Position numbers and translations under genes: made by a program. A stretch of 64,000 bases of DNA, taken from the NCBI GenBank assembly GCA_029262635.1, contig JAJCZA010000002.1:124001-188000 (forward strand). Direction: 5' to 3'. This document shows, piece after piece, positions 6,050 to 61,789 of this stretch; within the stretch, counting starts at the first letter, position 1, and each line of letters opens with the position of its first letter. Below the pieces are notes generated by a model that had not been told where the DNA came from, ran no database searches, and worked only from the letters and a program-made list of their open reading frames with translations. Source of the stretch: Vampirovibrionales bacterium (lineage in GTDB: Bacteria; Cyanobacteriota; Vampirovibrionia; Vampirovibrionales; Vampirovibrionaceae).

Positions 6050-8527
6050 TTGAAACAACGGGTTCGAGTCTTTTTTATTGTGGTTATGGTGTTCCTGCTT
6101 TTTGGGGGAGCGGGCGATGGCGCTTTTTCCAAAACGGCTCCTAATTCATCGAACCCTTCGGGTAAAGTAAAAACGACCTTGGGTGTCTTAAGCCCTCCGG
6201 TTGTTTCTAAAACCGATAAAGTTCGATGGGGATCCATTGCTCAATATTTAAACCGTCAGATTCAGACCCACCAGTTTGTGGTCCGCTTTCTTGATGCGGC
6301 TGAACTTCAAACCTTGAGTCAGGGTAATCGCAAGGATTTCCCAGAAGAAATCGACTTCCTCCTGTTGGATCCGGGGACGTTTCAAAAGCTCAATGACCAG
6401 AAGCAATTGACCGGACTGGCGACACTGAAAAATAGAATCGATGCTCAGGGAAAAAGTCCGTTGGCAACTACAGAAACCGGTGCTGTTGTCTTTATTCAGG
6501 GTGACTGGGCAAATGTTGAACTCCTTACAGCCCTAAAGGACAAATCGTTGATGGGCAATACGGAAAGCGAATTCGAATGGCGCATTGTCTGGGAGGAAAT
6601 GAAGCGACAGGGTGTTGATCCTTATCACGATCTCAAACTCTCGTTTGCGGGAGGGGCTCCTGAGAAAGTTGCTCAGGCCGTTAAAGCGGGGACGGTTTAT
6701 GCGGGTGTTTTATCCATTGAGCATTACTATAACCTGATTCGAAGTCAAGAATTTAAGAAAACTGATTTTCGGGTACTGAATATGAAAAAGAGGAATGCGG
6801 CGTTCCCTCTTGTCCATAGTACAAAAACTTACCCTGAGAAAGCTTTTGCTGCCTTGCCTCATGTTTCCACCTCCCTTCAGGAACAGGTCAGTCTAGCATT
6901 AATTGGCATGCCTATTCATTCATCAGAGGCCCAGGCGGCGGATATTTCGGGCTGGACGGTTCTTCAGGATTATCGTTCAGCGGGGCAGTTGAACGATGCT
7001 TTTGAAAAAAGCAAAAACTGGAATGGGCTGGACTTCTTTATAGATACAGTCGTCCAGAACTACAAAGCCGTTTGGCTTATTGCCATCTTGTTTCTCGGAC
7101 TTTTTACTTATGCTTTATGGAAAGAGGGCCGAGCTCGGCGAGAACTTGAAATTTTAAGGCTCGATCAGACCTCTATGGGCAAGAAGCTAGAGTTTCAAGC
7201 CTTTAACGATCCTTTGACCGGTCTCCCTAACCGACGACTGTTACAGGATCGTCTTTTGCAAACCATTAAGCTTTCGAATCGAGATAAACGATCCTTTTGT
7301 GTCGTTATGGCGGATCTCGATCATTTTAAAGAAGTGAATGATACGTTGGGTCATGATGCCGGTGATCAATTAATTAAAACCGTGGCTCGACGGCTACAGG
7401 ATACCCTGCGGGAGTCGGATACCATTTGCCGGGTTGGTGGTGATGAATTTGCGTTTATCTGTAACGATCTTGCGGGAGATTATGCACTTCCGCTCATTGC
7501 TAACCGGCTGATTGACGTGCTGACTGAGCCGATTGTGGTGAGCGGCACCGCATGTACAGTGGGTGTTAGTTTAGGGATTTCTCTTTATCCGGAACATGGG
7601 CAGGACCCGGAAATTCTGATGCGTAAAGCCGATATCGCTATGTATAAGGCCAAAGAAAAACGCAATTGCTTTGCGATTTTCGATCAAAATACCGATACTC
7701 GAAGCCGAGACATGTTTGTTCTACAGAACGACATTCGTACCGCCATCTCTAAAGATCAGCTTGAAGTCCATTTCCAGCCCATTATCAATGTGGCCGATAA
7801 AACGATTGTGGGCGTGGAAACCTTGGTTCGTTGGCTTCATCCGAAAAAAGGCATTATCATGCCGGATGATTTTATTCCTCTTGCTCGAAAAACCGGGCAG
7901 ATTAAGGCACTTAGTCAACTTGTCTTGAAAAAAGCCATTAAGGCAGGTGGCGAGTGGACGGCCCAACATGACCTCCCCCTTAGAATTTCGGTCAATATTA
8001 CCTCGGATGACTTGGAAGATAGTCATTTTTCAGAACAAGTCATTTCGCTTTTGAAAGAATACCAATATCCACCCAGTTATTTAGGGCTGGAAATAACCGA
8101 AGACTCACTCATTACGGAACTAGAAGATACGATTCATACTATCAATGAGCTAAGTGCAGAAGGTGTTAATTTCTACCTGGACGATTACGGTACGGGTTAT
8201 TCTTCGATTGCTTACCTGAAAAAACTGCCGATTCAGGCCCTTAAAATCGATCGTTCCTTTATTCAAGCTCTGGAGACAAGTGAAAACGACCTGACCATTG
8301 TTAAATCTACTATTGCACTGGCTCACAGCCTAGGGCTCAATATTGTTGCCGAGGGTGTGGAAAATGCCGAAATCCTTAAAACCCTTAGCCTGCTGGGGTG
8401 TCATTTGATTCAGGGGTACTACATTTGCCGACCGTTATCGGAATCCGAAATCGTTAGTTGGCTTAAGAATCCACCGTCCGGATTTGCTATCAAGCACCCT
8501 AACGAGATGATTCGGGTTATTCGTTAG
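6050..8527 (+). CDS. diguanylate cyclase/phosphodiesterase with PhnD-like periplasmic sensor
   Basis: 825 residues. A signal or TM segment (7-25) is followed by a periplasmic domain (about 40-320) like phosphonate/phosphate-binding PhnD proteins (RWGSIAQYL, IDFLLLDPGTF). A TM helix lies near 340-358, then GGDEF (DPLTGLPNRR near 386, intact GGDEF near 461 preceded by RESD, an I-site-type RxxD), then EAL. The EAL signature reads ETL (VETLVRWLHP near 589), with DDYGTGYSS and EGVE present, so hydrolysis is plausible. It should make and/or break c-di-GMP in response to an external ligand. TTG start at 6050 with GGAAGG upstream. Monocistronic; no ABC partner is adjacent. Confidence 0.88.
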   Translation: MKQRVRVFFIVVMVFLLFGGAGDGAFSKTAPNSSNPSGKVKTTLGVLSPPVVSKTDKVRWGSIAQYLNRQIQTHQFVVRFLDAAELQTLSQGNRKDFPEEIDFLLLDPGTFQKLNDQKQLTGLATLKNRIDAQGKSPLATTETGAVVFIQGDWANVELLTALKDKSLMGNTESEFEWRIVWEEMKRQGVDPYHDLKLSFAGGAPEKVAQAVKAGTVYAGVLSIEHYYNLIRSQEFKKTDFRVLNMKKRNAAFPLVHSTKTYPEKAFAALPHVSTSLQEQVSLALIGMPIHSSEAQAADISGWTVLQDYRSAGQLNDAFEKSKNWNGLDFFIDTVVQNYKAVWLIAILFLGLFTYALWKEGRARRELEILRLDQTSMGKKLEFQAFNDPLTGLPNRRLLQDRLLQTIKLSNRDKRSFCVVMADLDHFKEVNDTLGHDAGDQLIKTVARRLQDTLRESDTICRVGGDEFAFICNDLAGDYALPLIANRLIDVLTEPIVVSGTACTVGVSLGISLYPEHGQDPEILMRKADIAMYKAKEKRNCFAIFDQNTDTRSRDMFVLQNDIRTAISKDQLEVHFQPIINVADKTIVGVETLVRWLHPKKGIIMPDDFIPLARKTGQIKALSQLVLKKAIKAGGEWTAQHDLPLRISVNITSDDLEDSHFSEQVISLLKEYQYPPSYLGLEITEDSLITELEDTIHTINELSAEGVNFYLDDYGTGYSSIAYLKKLPIQALKIDRSFIQALETSENDLTIVKSTIALAHSLGLNIVAEGVENAEILKTLSLLGCHLIQGYYICRPLSESEIVSWLKNPPSGFAIKHPNEMIRVIR

Positions 8528-8599: not shown

Positions 8600-8730
8600 G
8601 AGTTATTTACATTTGTTCATAGACTAACATCAAAACCCTAATAATTGTTTTTATGCAGATACAAAGGTTAATCCCTTTTCAAACCAAAGATTTTTATTCT
8701 CTACAAACTTTAAACTTTATTTTCTCTACT
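8600..8730 (+). repeat. dispersed non-coding repeat, copy A
   Basis: An A/T-rich segment closely matching 60242-60370. Shared blocks include ATTTACATTT, ATAGACTA, TAATAATTGTTTTTATGCA and ACAAAGGTTAA, and order and orientation are kept. Both copies lie just after a plus-strand gene, before a hairpin terminator, and opposite a minus-strand exported peptidase. Single-base insertions between the copies break any shared reading frame, so the conserved unit is DNA or RNA rather than protein. Confidence 0.7.
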
Positions 8731-8810
8731 TATCAAAATCCAAACCACAACATTTTCTATTTCTCTCTCTTTTCAGTTTTTTTCTCTATTTTCTTTTACT
8801 TAGACGATTT

Positions 8811-8840
8811 ATAACTCGCCGGAACAGGCGGGTTATTTTT
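8811..8840 (+). terminator. rho-independent terminator after repeat copy A
   Basis: A stem of ATAACTCGCC with GGCGGGTTAT (one G-T pair) and a six-base loop, followed by TTTT. It may end the GGDEF-EAL transcript or a separate RNA made from the repeat. Confidence 0.75.
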
Positions 8841-8871
8841 CTGCTCTTGGCTCTTGATGAGATAAGTTTTA

Positions 8872-9795
8872 TTAACAGCGTTTGGGGTGAACCCATTGTG
8901 CGGGATTCACCGGCAGTCCATTAACGTAAAGCCCCCAATGTAAATGGGGGCCGGTGGCAAAGCCGGTCGAACCGACTCGACCGATGACCTGACCTTTTTC
9001 TACTTTTTCGCCGGGCTTGACATCTAATTTGGACATGTGGATATAGATGGAACTAATGCCTTGTCCATGGTCTAACCCGACGGTTCCGCCATGAAGCCGA
9101 TAAAACCGGGAAATTTTAACTGTTCCACCCGTGGTCGCCCGAATGGGTCGGCCTTGAGGCGAGCGCAGATCAATTCCCTTATGATAATTTCCCGTGAATT
9201 TTCCGTTGTGGAGGCGCAGGTTGCCAAAACGGGAGTTCATACAGTCTGTTGTGGGCGCGACAAAGGGAACGGTCCAATAGCGGGTGCCCCCGGTTTCTTT
9301 CTTTAGTTTGCCAATGGTTTCTAGTTCACCCGACTCCGGCTGAGTCCCTTTCATGGACGAACTCACCCGAATATTTTGCTTTGAGTAATGGGCGTTAACC
9401 ACTTCAACCTTACTCTCATAAAGGGTTTTTCCGTCCCGGTTCTGTATTTTAAACGTATAGCCCCCCGGCTTTTGATTGACTTTTACCGGCATGACCCCTT
9501 GTAGTGAGCCGTTGGTTTGCTTAAATAAGGGTGCCTTTACTCCTGTCAGCCATGCGGTCCCTTCGTCAAAACCTTTTCTGGGGTGGAGAATCTGAATCAT
9601 AAACGTCTCACCCTGTTTGACGGTGTGCGCCATTTTCAGCTCTTCCTTTAACAGGGGCGTCTTATTTCTGGGGTGAGAAGCGTCATGAGGCACTGGTGCC
9701 TGACCAACGGCTTCGGCGTTTTTGATGAAAAGACTGATACCTAAACAGAAAACGGAAAAAAGTACACTTAATATAAGCAAGCTCGGACGCTTCAC
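8872..9795 (-). CDS. M23 family (LytM-like) metallopeptidase
   Basis: 307 residues with a cleavable signal peptide (hydrophobic 5-24, likely cut after AEA near 29). An Ig-like middle region (60-135) precedes the LytM zinc peptidase domain (about 175-300). Zinc ligands are visible as H205 and D209 (NYHKGIDL) and H286 in GPHLHWG, with H284 and H253 as the catalytic histidines. Such enzymes cut peptidoglycan cross-links outside the membrane or activate amidases. All key residues are kept, so activity is expected. No coiled coil is present, unlike EnvC/NlpD. It is convergent with the GGDEF-EAL gene across the repeat. Confidence 0.88.
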   Translation of the reverse strand: MKRPSLLILSVLFSVFCLGISLFIKNAEAVGQAPVPHDASHPRNKTPLLKEELKMAHTVKQGETFMIQILHPRKGFDEGTAWLTGVKAPLFKQTNGSLQGVMPVKVNQKPGGYTFKIQNRDGKTLYESKVEVVNAHYSKQNIRVSSSMKGTQPESGELETIGKLKKETGGTRYWTVPFVAPTTDCMNSRFGNLRLHNGKFTGNYHKGIDLRSPQGRPIRATTGGTVKISRFYRLHGGTVGLDHGQGISSIYIHMSKLDVKPGEKVEKGQVIGRVGSTGFATGPHLHWGLYVNGLPVNPAQWVHPKRC

Positions 9796-59467: not shown

Positions 59468-60220
59468 ATGACCACGACCACACAACGACCGGAACAACTA
59501 CCATCGGAGTACGAAAGCAAGATTCGGGAAATCGAAAAACAGATTTATGGTGCCCCGGAAAAAGAATGCACCGGCGGGTGTCAGGATAAACAGGACGAGA
59601 AGCAGGAAGGGTGTCCGAACTACGCGCCGGACGAGTCCTTGCTCAACCCGGTTGGACGTTTGATTGTTGACGGCTTTTATAATGCCATGGAAGTGTGTTT
59701 CGATGAATTGGGCCAGTTAAGCGACCCGCCTAAAAATATTCTGGTGATTGGTGGGTGTCGTCAGCGAGATATGGCTCGTCGTTTGGGCTTCTTACTCCCT
59801 TTTTCAAAAATTTATACGCTGGATCCCGATCTGGAGCAGGTTCAACGGGCGGAAGTCGAAATTAAATGCCGTTTTAAATTTACCCATGGTTCGGTTGAAG
59901 CCTTGCCGTTTGAGGATAAAGCCATCGACTTAACTCTGGCGCATAATGCGTTTGAATACATTGCGGATTGGGAACAAGCCGCTGAGGAAATTAGACGGGT
60001 CACTCGCCATTATGCCGTTGTCGGCCTGCATCGCCCACTGATGGGTAAGCTGTTGGGAGCGATTCCTGGTGTTCAGAGAGCCATAACCCATCTGGGCTGT
60101 TCGGTGCCTCAAAAACAACCGTCCAAAAGAACGGTTATCGAGAAGCTAAAAGAAATCAGTACCATTAAAACCACAGCTCAACCTGCCCCTTGGCAGTTAA
60201 TGATGTGCCGAATCAAATAA
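59468..60220 (+). CDS. SAM-dependent methyltransferase with N-terminal Cys motif
   Basis: 250 residues. The methyltransferase core shows a motif-I-like NILVIGGCRQRDMARRLG near 90, KIYTLDPD, FTHGSVEALPFEDKAIDLTLAHNAFEYI (motif IV region) and VTRHYAVVGLH. The usual GxGxG is altered to GGCRQ. Before the core, CTGGC and a further Cys (C34, C38, C49) form a possible metal site. Substrate unknown. Transcribed alone and followed within 25 bases by copy B of a repeat. Confidence 0.72.
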   Translation: MTTTTQRPEQLPSEYESKIREIEKQIYGAPEKECTGGCQDKQDEKQEGCPNYAPDESLLNPVGRLIVDGFYNAMEVCFDELGQLSDPPKNILVIGGCRQRDMARRLGFLLPFSKIYTLDPDLEQVQRAEVEIKCRFKFTHGSVEALPFEDKAIDLTLAHNAFEYIADWEQAAEEIRRVTRHYAVVGLHRPLMGKLLGAIPGVQRAITHLGCSVPQKQPSKRTVIEKLKEISTIKTTAQPAPWQLMMCRIK

Positions 60221-60241: not shown

Positions 60242-60370
60242 GAGTGTATTTACATTTCGTAATAGACTAGCATCAAAAGCATAATAATTGTTTTTATGCA
60301 AACACAAAGGTTAAACCCCTTTTCAAAACAAAGATTTTTTATTCTCTACAATCTTATTTTCTCAACTGAT
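60242..60370 (+). repeat. dispersed non-coding repeat, copy B
   Basis: Matches copy A at 8600-8730 in the same orientation, with the blocks ATTTACATTT, ATAGACTA, TAATAATTGTTTTTATGCA, ACAAAGGTTAA and ATTCTCTACAA. Compared with A it has one extra C in the run after GGTTAA, one extra T in the next T-run and an 11-base deletion further on. A terminator hairpin follows about 40 bases later. Confidence 0.7.
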
Positions 60371-60407
60371 TAACATTCTCTTCTCTCTCTTAAACTCTTT
60401 TAAATCA

Positions 60408-60446
60408 AAAGAAACCCCTCTCCTAAGACGGTAGAGGGGTTTCTTT
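60408..60446. terminator. bidirectional terminator after repeat copy B
   Basis: A 14-bp stem, AAAGAAACCCCTCT with AGAGGGGTTTCTTT, and an 11-base loop, between convergent transcripts. Its A- and T-rich ends suit both directions, including the HtrA gene read from the right. Confidence 0.8.
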
Positions 60447-60475
60447 GTGCATTTTCAGAGGCTCTCTGGACTTCT

Positions 60476-61789
60476 TTACCGGTGCTGGTAATTGTCCGGG
60501 AGTTTTGCCGTTTTAACGGGCAGGGCCATCAAGCGACCTTCTCGAATAATCTGGAAATTCAGGGTGGTGTCGATGGGTTTACCTTGTACCAAGTTCTGGA
60601 TGTTTTTGGCTTCGCCCACTTTTTTGCCATCGACGCGCTGAATAATGTCTCCGTAACGGAATCCGCCTTGCTCAGCCGGACTTCCGGGCATGACTTGAGC
60701 CACAATAACACCGACTGTATTTTTCGATAAGCCAAGGCTTCTAGCAAGTTCTGGGGTGATCTTACTCATGGCAATTCCAATCCAGGGGCGGCTGATGTTG
60801 CCTTCCGTGATTAAGATTTCTGAGACATTTCGGGCCACGTTGGCCGGAATGGCAAAACCAATATTTTGCCCCCGACCGGAAATGGCCGTGTTAATACCCA
60901 CGACTTCGCCGTGAAGATTGACCAGCGGCCCTCCCGAATTACCCGGATTAATCGCGGCGTCAGTCTGGATGAAGTCCAGGTTTACGTTGATGTCAGGTAC
61001 TCGACGGGAGATGGCACTGATAATGCCCAAGGTTACAGTGTGGTCAAACCCCAGAGGACTACCCACAGCAATCACCCATTCACCAGGACGTAACTTTTCA
61101 CTGTCGCCCAGAGGGGCGGGAACCAGATTGTCCGCCTCGATTTTGAGAACAGCGATATCTGAGAATCGATCGGAGCCGACTTTTTTGGCGGGGAAGACCC
61201 GGCCGTCGTTTAGAGTGACTTGTACTTCGTCGGCACCTTGGATAACGTGGTTATTGGTCAGAATATGACCTTTCTTGTCAATAATGACTCCAGAGCCATT
61301 GCCCTGAATTACTCGCTTTGGGGCAGACCGTTGAGAGTAATGACGAAAGGGAGATTGTCCCTGTTCAAAGCCGAAAAAACGACGGAAAATTTCATCCTCA
61401 AAAGGCGAAATAACGCCCGAATCATAAGCTGGACGACGTGCCCGTTTTGAAATGTCAATGTTGACGACTGAAGGCGCCATTTGTTCAGCGACATCCGCAA
61501 TGAGGTTCGGGTTATTGCCGAACATGACACCAAACCCACTGCGTCGATCCCGGTTATCCGCCAGTTGAATATCTGGATGGGAAGTTTGATGAGATTGTCC
61601 AAATTCAGAGGGTTCTATTTCTTGAGAGTGCTCTTGAATCCCTAATTTGGGGACGCCTGCGGAAAACACAGCGCCAACAGCTGTTAGAGAAAGAACAATC
61701 ATTAGTCCGGCTATAATTATAGCTAAGGGGAACATTCGTTTGGACGAGCGGCTGACACTTGCTTTTTCGGACAGCTTATCGGGCTTCAT
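60476..61789 (-). CDS. HtrA/DegP family serine protease
   Basis: 437 residues. An N-terminal TM or signal segment (20-44) is followed by a trypsin-like domain with the triad H181 (LTNNHVIQG), D211 (FSDIAVLKIE) and S285 (NPGNSGGPL), then a single PDZ domain (about 340-425, GVIVAQVMPGSPAEQGGF). One PDZ domain resembles DegS and cyanobacterial Hho proteases rather than DegP, which has two. It degrades misfolded envelope proteins or senses them. Monocistronic, convergent with the methyltransferase across repeat B. Confidence 0.92.
   Translation of the reverse strand: MKPDKLSEKASVSRSSKRMFPLAIIIAGLMIVLSLTAVGAVFSAGVPKLGIQEHSQEIEPSEFGQSHQTSHPDIQLADNRDRRSGFGVMFGNNPNLIADVAEQMAPSVVNIDISKRARRPAYDSGVISPFEDEIFRRFFGFEQGQSPFRHYSQRSAPKRVIQGNGSGVIIDKKGHILTNNHVIQGADEVQVTLNDGRVFPAKKVGSDRFSDIAVLKIEADNLVPAPLGDSEKLRPGEWVIAVGSPLGFDHTVTLGIISAISRRVPDINVNLDFIQTDAAINPGNSGGPLVNLHGEVVGINTAISGRGQNIGFAIPANVARNVSEILITEGNISRPWIGIAMSKITPELARSLGLSKNTVGVIVAQVMPGSPAEQGGFRYGDIIQRVDGKKVGEAKNIQNLVQGKPIDTTLNFQIIREGRLMALPVKTAKLPDNYQHR

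Follow-up and report, generated by a model that had tools for sequence, protein, structure and literature searches.

The Qrr sRNAs of Vibrio are siblings that are driven by sigma-54, depend on Hfq and carry a strongly conserved seed. CsrB/RsmZ and CrcZ are titrating RNAs for CsrA and for Hfq-Crc. Yfr1, from photosynthetic cyanobacteria, is a single-copy RNA of about 55-65 nt that carries ACUCCUCACAC, while merRNA of the predatory Bdellovibrio is an abundant, structured c-di-GMP riboswitch RNA made from a regulon promoter. LhrC of Listeria monocytogenes is encoded in five copies of 111-114 nt under a common regulator (PMC4132741). It exposes redundant CU-rich target-binding motifs in single-stranded or loop regions, and Hfq is dispensable for its regulation of lapB (PMC4132741).

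Gene regulation in the Vampirovibrio lineage appears to be little studied. No literature on its sRNAs, promoters or sigma factors was found in a search that covered few subscription journals, and the genome paper on V. chlorellavorus does not mention sigma factors, promoters or small RNAs in its main text (PMC4451040). The stretch of DNA analysed here (the window) covers 64 kb, positions 124001-188000 of contig 2 in a Vampirovibrionales genome of 2.99 Mb (G000). A preliminary description had pointed to a repeat at two sites, colinear and on the same strand, each site with a plus-strand gene end upstream, a hairpin terminator and a facing peptidase gene. The repeat was recovered when the whole genome was searched, with 8604-8750 (copy A) matching 60247-60376 (copy B) at 82% over 143 positions (E = 1e-33), and the gene ends, terminators and peptidase genes were all found in place. 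A common protein frame, which had been said to be absent, is indeed broken between the copies because of indels. The features of both copies are as follows.

6050..8527, plus strand: upstream neighbour of copy A, a periplasmic-binding, GGDEF and EAL protein (Pfam)
8606..8619, plus strand: copy A, upstream A/T-rich element TTTACATTTGTTCA (conserved profile columns)
8624..8635, plus strand: copy A, -35-like box CTAACATCAAAA (promoter model R2 match at 8615-8664, E = 8.5e-15 in the window)
8645..8657, plus strand: copy A, -10-like box TTGTTTTTATGCA, with the near-invariant GnTTTTAT
8661..8843, plus strand: copy A, predicted sRNA of about 183 nt, its start placed from the motif geometry
8663..8678, plus strand: copy A, 5' hairpin AAAGG-loop-CCUUU, weak here (folding)
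8680..8811, plus strand: copy A, G-depleted, unstructured pyrimidine/A-rich body (4 G in 132 nt)
8795..8807, plus strand: copy A, 3' box UUUACUUAGACGA (alignments; 3'-region model R3 match at 8787-8840, E = 7e-8)
8811..8841, plus strand: copy A, intrinsic terminator AACUCGCC-GGAACA-GGCGGGUU plus U run (hairpin of -15.1 kcal/mol)
8872..9795, minus strand: convergent neighbour of copy A, an exported M23 peptidase (Pfam, BLASTP)
59468..60220, plus strand: upstream neighbour of copy B, a methyltransferase-like protein
60250..60263, plus strand: copy B, upstream element of the promoter motif (profile)
60267..60278, plus strand: copy B, -35-like box CTAGCATCAAAA (R2 match at 60257-60307, E = 4e-14)
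60288..60300, plus strand: copy B, -10-like box TTGTTTTTATGCA (profile and R2)
60304..60447, plus strand: copy B, predicted sRNA of about 144 nt (R3 match at 60389-60446, E = 3e-5)
60410..60446, plus strand: copy B, intrinsic terminator AACCCCUCU...AGAGGGGUUU (-17.3 kcal/mol)
60476..61789, minus strand: convergent neighbour of copy B, an HtrA-type protease

In the 64-kb window, both R2 and R3 match exactly two loci, copies A and B, which are also the only stretches this poor in G on either strand. A third full copy, overlooked before because it lies outside the window, was found at G000:C2:536561-536803 (81%, E = 2e-61) and aligns over the whole unit including the terminator; weaker matches in the same genome lie at C2:116314 and C2:474442. 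Together with homologues that occur in another six genomes of the family, spread over several genera, these copies support the earlier proposal of a small RNA family; the same holds for the promoter motif and the terminator and for the conservation of a 3' box and of the neighbouring genes. A family of non-coding sRNA genes with a dedicated promoter is a reading in which we have high confidence.

Compared with LhrC, the Vampirovibrionales copies are likewise multicopy siblings with one promoter type and CU-rich exposed repeats, in an order in which Hfq was not found. However, LhrC copies are nearly identical whereas those described here are strongly divergent, with a longer and almost G-free body, an unrelated box (UCUACUCARACAA), a promoter class common to protein genes and a distant host. 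An Rfam scan of the window, on which this comparison is based, shows no homology to LhrC; with Rfam 15, only one tRNA reaches the gathering cut-off in the whole 64 kb, and the repeat matches no family. Like Qrr, the copies are several siblings at scattered intergenic sites behind one dedicated promoter type, but the motif is unlike a sigma-54 site and Hfq was not detected. An Hfq-dependent trans-acting sRNA of the Qrr or RyhB type was accordingly rejected (Hfq in 0 of 17 genomes). Multiple short repeats per RNA and co-regulation with a regulon recall CsrB/RsmZ and CrcZ, from which the RNA differs in having no GGA loops and in a setting where Hfq was not found. Yfr1 is likewise a small cyanobacterial RNA with an exposed, conserved pyrimidine/A-rich stretch, whereas the present sRNA is multicopy, carries another box and has no Rfam match. 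With merRNA it has in common a position behind a regulon promoter in a predatory bacterium, but it is unstructured and belongs to no Rfam family. From its sequence features, the repeat is best described as a putative and so far undescribed multicopy family of trans-acting sRNAs with an unusual composition, belonging to a likewise undescribed, lineage-specific promoter class.

In the RNA body, conservation lies mainly in composition (few G), the 3' box and the overall architecture, whereas the best-conserved 50 bp or so are probably a promoter-like motif rather than transcribed RNA. The preliminary description had overlooked this promoter motif, which is found across the lineage and surpasses the rest of the repeat in conservation. 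An alignment of matches from relatives gives a motif of about 50 bp and fixed length, consisting of an upstream A/T element, CTAaCAnCaAAA, N9 and TTGTTTTTATrCA. In a profile of 75 sites the upstream element (consensus TTWACATTTcTTAAca) is moderately conserved at columns -18 to -3 and the -35-like box is well conserved, and within the -10-like box GnTTTTAT is nearly invariant. Box spacing is identical in 76 of the 86 sites inspected and 1 bp longer in six more (82 within 1 bp), as expected for a promoter contacted by polymerase, although this uniformity is partly ascertainment because most sites came from models trained on related sites. The centres of the two boxes are about 23 bp apart, a geometry as for sigma-70-family promoters, and both boxes differ from the usual -35/-10 consensus. 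Only 6 of 81 sites fall inside ORFs of at least 100 aa and 75 fall outside, compared to 71% of random positions inside. A ribosome binding site (RBS) and start codon follow within 330 nt at 52 of 81 sites, versus 34% of random positions, and at sites other than the sRNA copies they usually lie 45-200 nt downstream of the motif. Two conserved boxes, nearly fixed spacing, an intergenic location and a place upstream of genes are thus found together, as in sigma-70-family promoters.

A genome survey with a model built from 67 sites (E ≤ 0.001) detected the motif in all 18 Vampirovibrionales genomes searched, with 2-27 mostly intergenic sites each and about 10-25 in most family members. Among the other genomes of the class, 6 of 69 gave a match, in each case one single marginal hit. 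Therefore, the motif can be considered a lineage-specific promoter class. When named genomes were scanned with the motif core, 15 stretches were retrieved, all from records of Vampirovibrio/Vampirovibrionales or of 'Cyanobacteria'/'cyanobacterium' except for one of Phycisphaerales. A phage origin was rejected: 2.9 million viral contigs contain no exact match to the motif, and one regulon protein queried there had no relative.

At most sites the motif is found a short distance before a start codon, and the proteins encoded there are for the most part lineage-specific. Within G000, genes of the regulon (contigs C2, C4, C5, C17, C18, C20 and C29; loci L097-L120) encode a transglycosylase of the SLT type with a LysM trace, an adenylate/guanylate cyclase and a regulator that carries GntR-type HTH domains in four copies; one further product matches subtilase weakly, and many are lineage-specific low-complexity proteins, often rich in Gly/Pro/Asn, without a Pfam match. 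In four genera (G000, G001, G002 and G003) the motif stands upstream of the gene for a protein marked by the signature RRyDGGsEieLI, a conservation that gives phylogenetic support to the regulon. This is the first regulon map found for the predatory Vampirovibrio lineage, and the motif alone predicts both co-expressed genes of unknown function and intergenic sites that make sRNAs.

About 24 motif sites, the two of the window among them, are directly followed not by a gene but by a short unit that ends in a strong terminator. These units measure 65-210 nt and comprise, in many copies, a 5' hairpin, then a pyrimidine-rich body, the box UCUACUCARACAA and an intrinsic terminator. Their bodies are mostly 1-5% G and 60-75% pyrimidine, with fold energies near zero outside the ends. 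The 5' hairpins vary in sequence while the pairing persists, from AAAGG/CCUUU in G000 to AAAGAGAAA/UUUCUCUUU and CGAAGAG/CUCUUCG in G002 and a long hairpin in copy G008b; in several copies, those of the window included, the hairpin is no stronger than in shuffled sequences. The box stands directly before the terminator and is conserved over several genera in the alignments, and in copy G004a the terminator is the near hairpin, directly after the box. RNAalifold returned no common base pairs for the 3' region, and no covariation is claimed, because the sequence of the terminator hairpin changes from copy to copy.

The 3'-region model R3, which was built without promoter sequence, gave 21 matches at E ≤ 1.4e-3, nearly all of which directly follow a promoter match. 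They are distributed over seven genomes at one to five copies each (G000, 3; G002, 4; G004, 2; G005, 5; G006, 1; G008, 5; G009, 1), and the same search recognised no copies in G001, G003 and G007. Shorter relatives with CU-rich bodies (family f2, in G010 and G014) stand behind the same motif.

The neighbourhood is also conserved, with the htrA-sRNA arrangement kept in five genomes. HtrA homologues with Trypsin_2 and PDZ domains, 55-63% identical to that of the window, face sRNA copies in G002, G005, G006 and G008, and an M23 peptidase homologue (53% identity, BLASTP) faces one in G005. Methyltransferase-like homologues (33-34% identity) precede copies in G005 and G008. Since neighbours are conserved across genera, the copies are probably old, vertically kept genes rather than transient insertions, with some recent duplication; three copies in G005 are near-identical.

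As a single statement, an sRNA family that belongs to a promoter-defined regulon and pairs in trans with mRNAs without Hfq has, in our judgement, about an even chance of being right. Each copy would be a complete gene, with its own promoter of the class that also drives protein genes, recognised by an alternative sigma factor or a dedicated activator. From the inferred start, transcription would end at the intrinsic terminator and give an RNA of 65-210 nt, produced whenever the regulon is on. The exposed pyrimidine-rich body or the box could then pair redundantly with purine-rich mRNA stretches. Pairing is preferred because LhrC is built in this way, as exposed CU-rich RNA present in redundant copies. 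A single candidate target was detected, an mRNA leader in G005 (L273, C2 near 270300, minus strand), in which two tandem box complements, one of them a perfect 13-mer, precede an RBS, an ATG and a Gln/Gly-rich ORF. Exact box complements are rare elsewhere, and none occurs in the leaders of 56 motif-driven mRNAs. The body diverges quickly between genera, a pattern that would suit selection on its composition better than selection on a pairing seed. This drift at constant composition, the near-zero fold energy and the several copies per genome would also fit a sponge, in which G-free unstructured repeats sequester an RNA-binding protein when the regulon is on, like CsrB/RsmZ and CrcZ. Short motifs are repeated within the RNA as well, UCUACUCAAA-like in G002 and CUAC and CACUC in G008 and G005. 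However, the bodies lack the GGA motifs required for CsrA. Hfq was detected in none of 17 genomes of the order, nor were the Rho RNA-binding domain and the cold-shock domain (CSD), while the positive controls were detected; no RRM protein was detected in three genomes with the sRNA, G000, G006 and G008. Hfq, Rho, cold-shock and RRM proteins were on this basis rejected as partners, which leaves no candidate protein for a sponge, and titration, the main rival to pairing, is a tentative and somewhat unlikely explanation. A wider version of it is rather unlikely: a dedicated Vampirovibrionales transcription programme in which a sigma factor or activator not yet recognised acts via CTAaCAnCaAAA-N9-TTGTTTTTATrCA on lineage-specific low-complexity and envelope-acting proteins and on nearly G-free sRNAs, the latter titrating an RNA-binding protein in cells without Hfq, Rho, cold-shock and, in several genomes, RRM proteins. 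Such a programme might perhaps be tied to a predatory or host-associated phase. Nearly G-free sRNAs in cells in which the usual RNA chaperones were not found pose a clean question on their mode of action.

The remaining explanations dispense with a trans-acting RNA or derive it otherwise. That the promoter is the best-conserved part, and that convergent genes flank several copies and have a terminator in common, would suit a unit whose product has no function, serving to insulate convergent 3' ends or as a decoy for a sigma factor or activator; this is improbable, as G-depletion over 80-140 nt, a 3' box kept across genera and the 5' hairpins are left unexplained. Processing from the 3' UTR of the upstream gene, one of the alternatives raised in the preliminary description, agrees with the co-directional upstream gene at both window copies. 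It is nevertheless very unlikely, given that every copy is preceded by a promoter motif of its own, the same that serves as leader promoter at protein-gene sites, and that the upstream genes vary, with an ORF on the opposite strand at G002d. The other alternative raised there, a mobile non-coding element of the MITE or REP type, could account for dispersed copies and for the near-identical trio in G005, but similarity does not extend beyond the promoter and the terminator, copies beside htrA and M23 have positional orthologues in other genera, protein genes use the motif as well, no exact match to it occurs in the viral contigs, and the window repeat scan found no inverted pair of at least 30 nt at the copies; we regard such an element as hardly to be expected. 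Finally, an ATG inside the -10-like box (ATGCA) opens 54 codons in copy A, as a short conserved peptide would require. No RBS accompanies it, longer genes have this ATG in their promoters too, sometimes with a stop close behind, and the frame is lost between copies, making a peptide extremely unlikely.

For the sRNA family as part of a regulon, possible regulators were considered among the sigma-70-family genes, of which each genome has 2-11. A SigB/F-like sigma factor, encoded beside a prepilin-peptidase-like gene, is present in most genomes but was not found in the motif-bearing G003 and was rejected as the cognate factor. FliA was also rejected, since its promoter (TAAA-N15-GCCGATAA) is unlike the motif. 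Strong motif copies at sigma-like genes are limited to one cluster, G010:C81, where the gene for a divergent sigma-70-like protein of 685 aa with a long insertion has a motif copy on either side, one of which belongs to an sRNA gene (L209, 2500-8000). This protein is a candidate regulator. Another divergent sigma factor, FliA-like and with a long N-terminal extension, is encoded in G000 (L200, C20, 123-914, minus strand).

Runs of G6-G7 or C6-C8 were observed in six leaders of the G000 regulon (L103, L107, L110, L112, L114 and L119). Such G/C homopolymer runs occur at 1.27 per kb in these regulon leaders versus 0.125 per kb in the window, an excess that is weak in relatives, and they are possibly phase-variable. 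In family f3 (L080 and L082, G013 and G011), the motif is followed by a long CU-rich mRNA leader and then by a Tyr/Asn-rich protein, which suggests a common origin or a common binding partner for CU-rich leaders and sRNA bodies.
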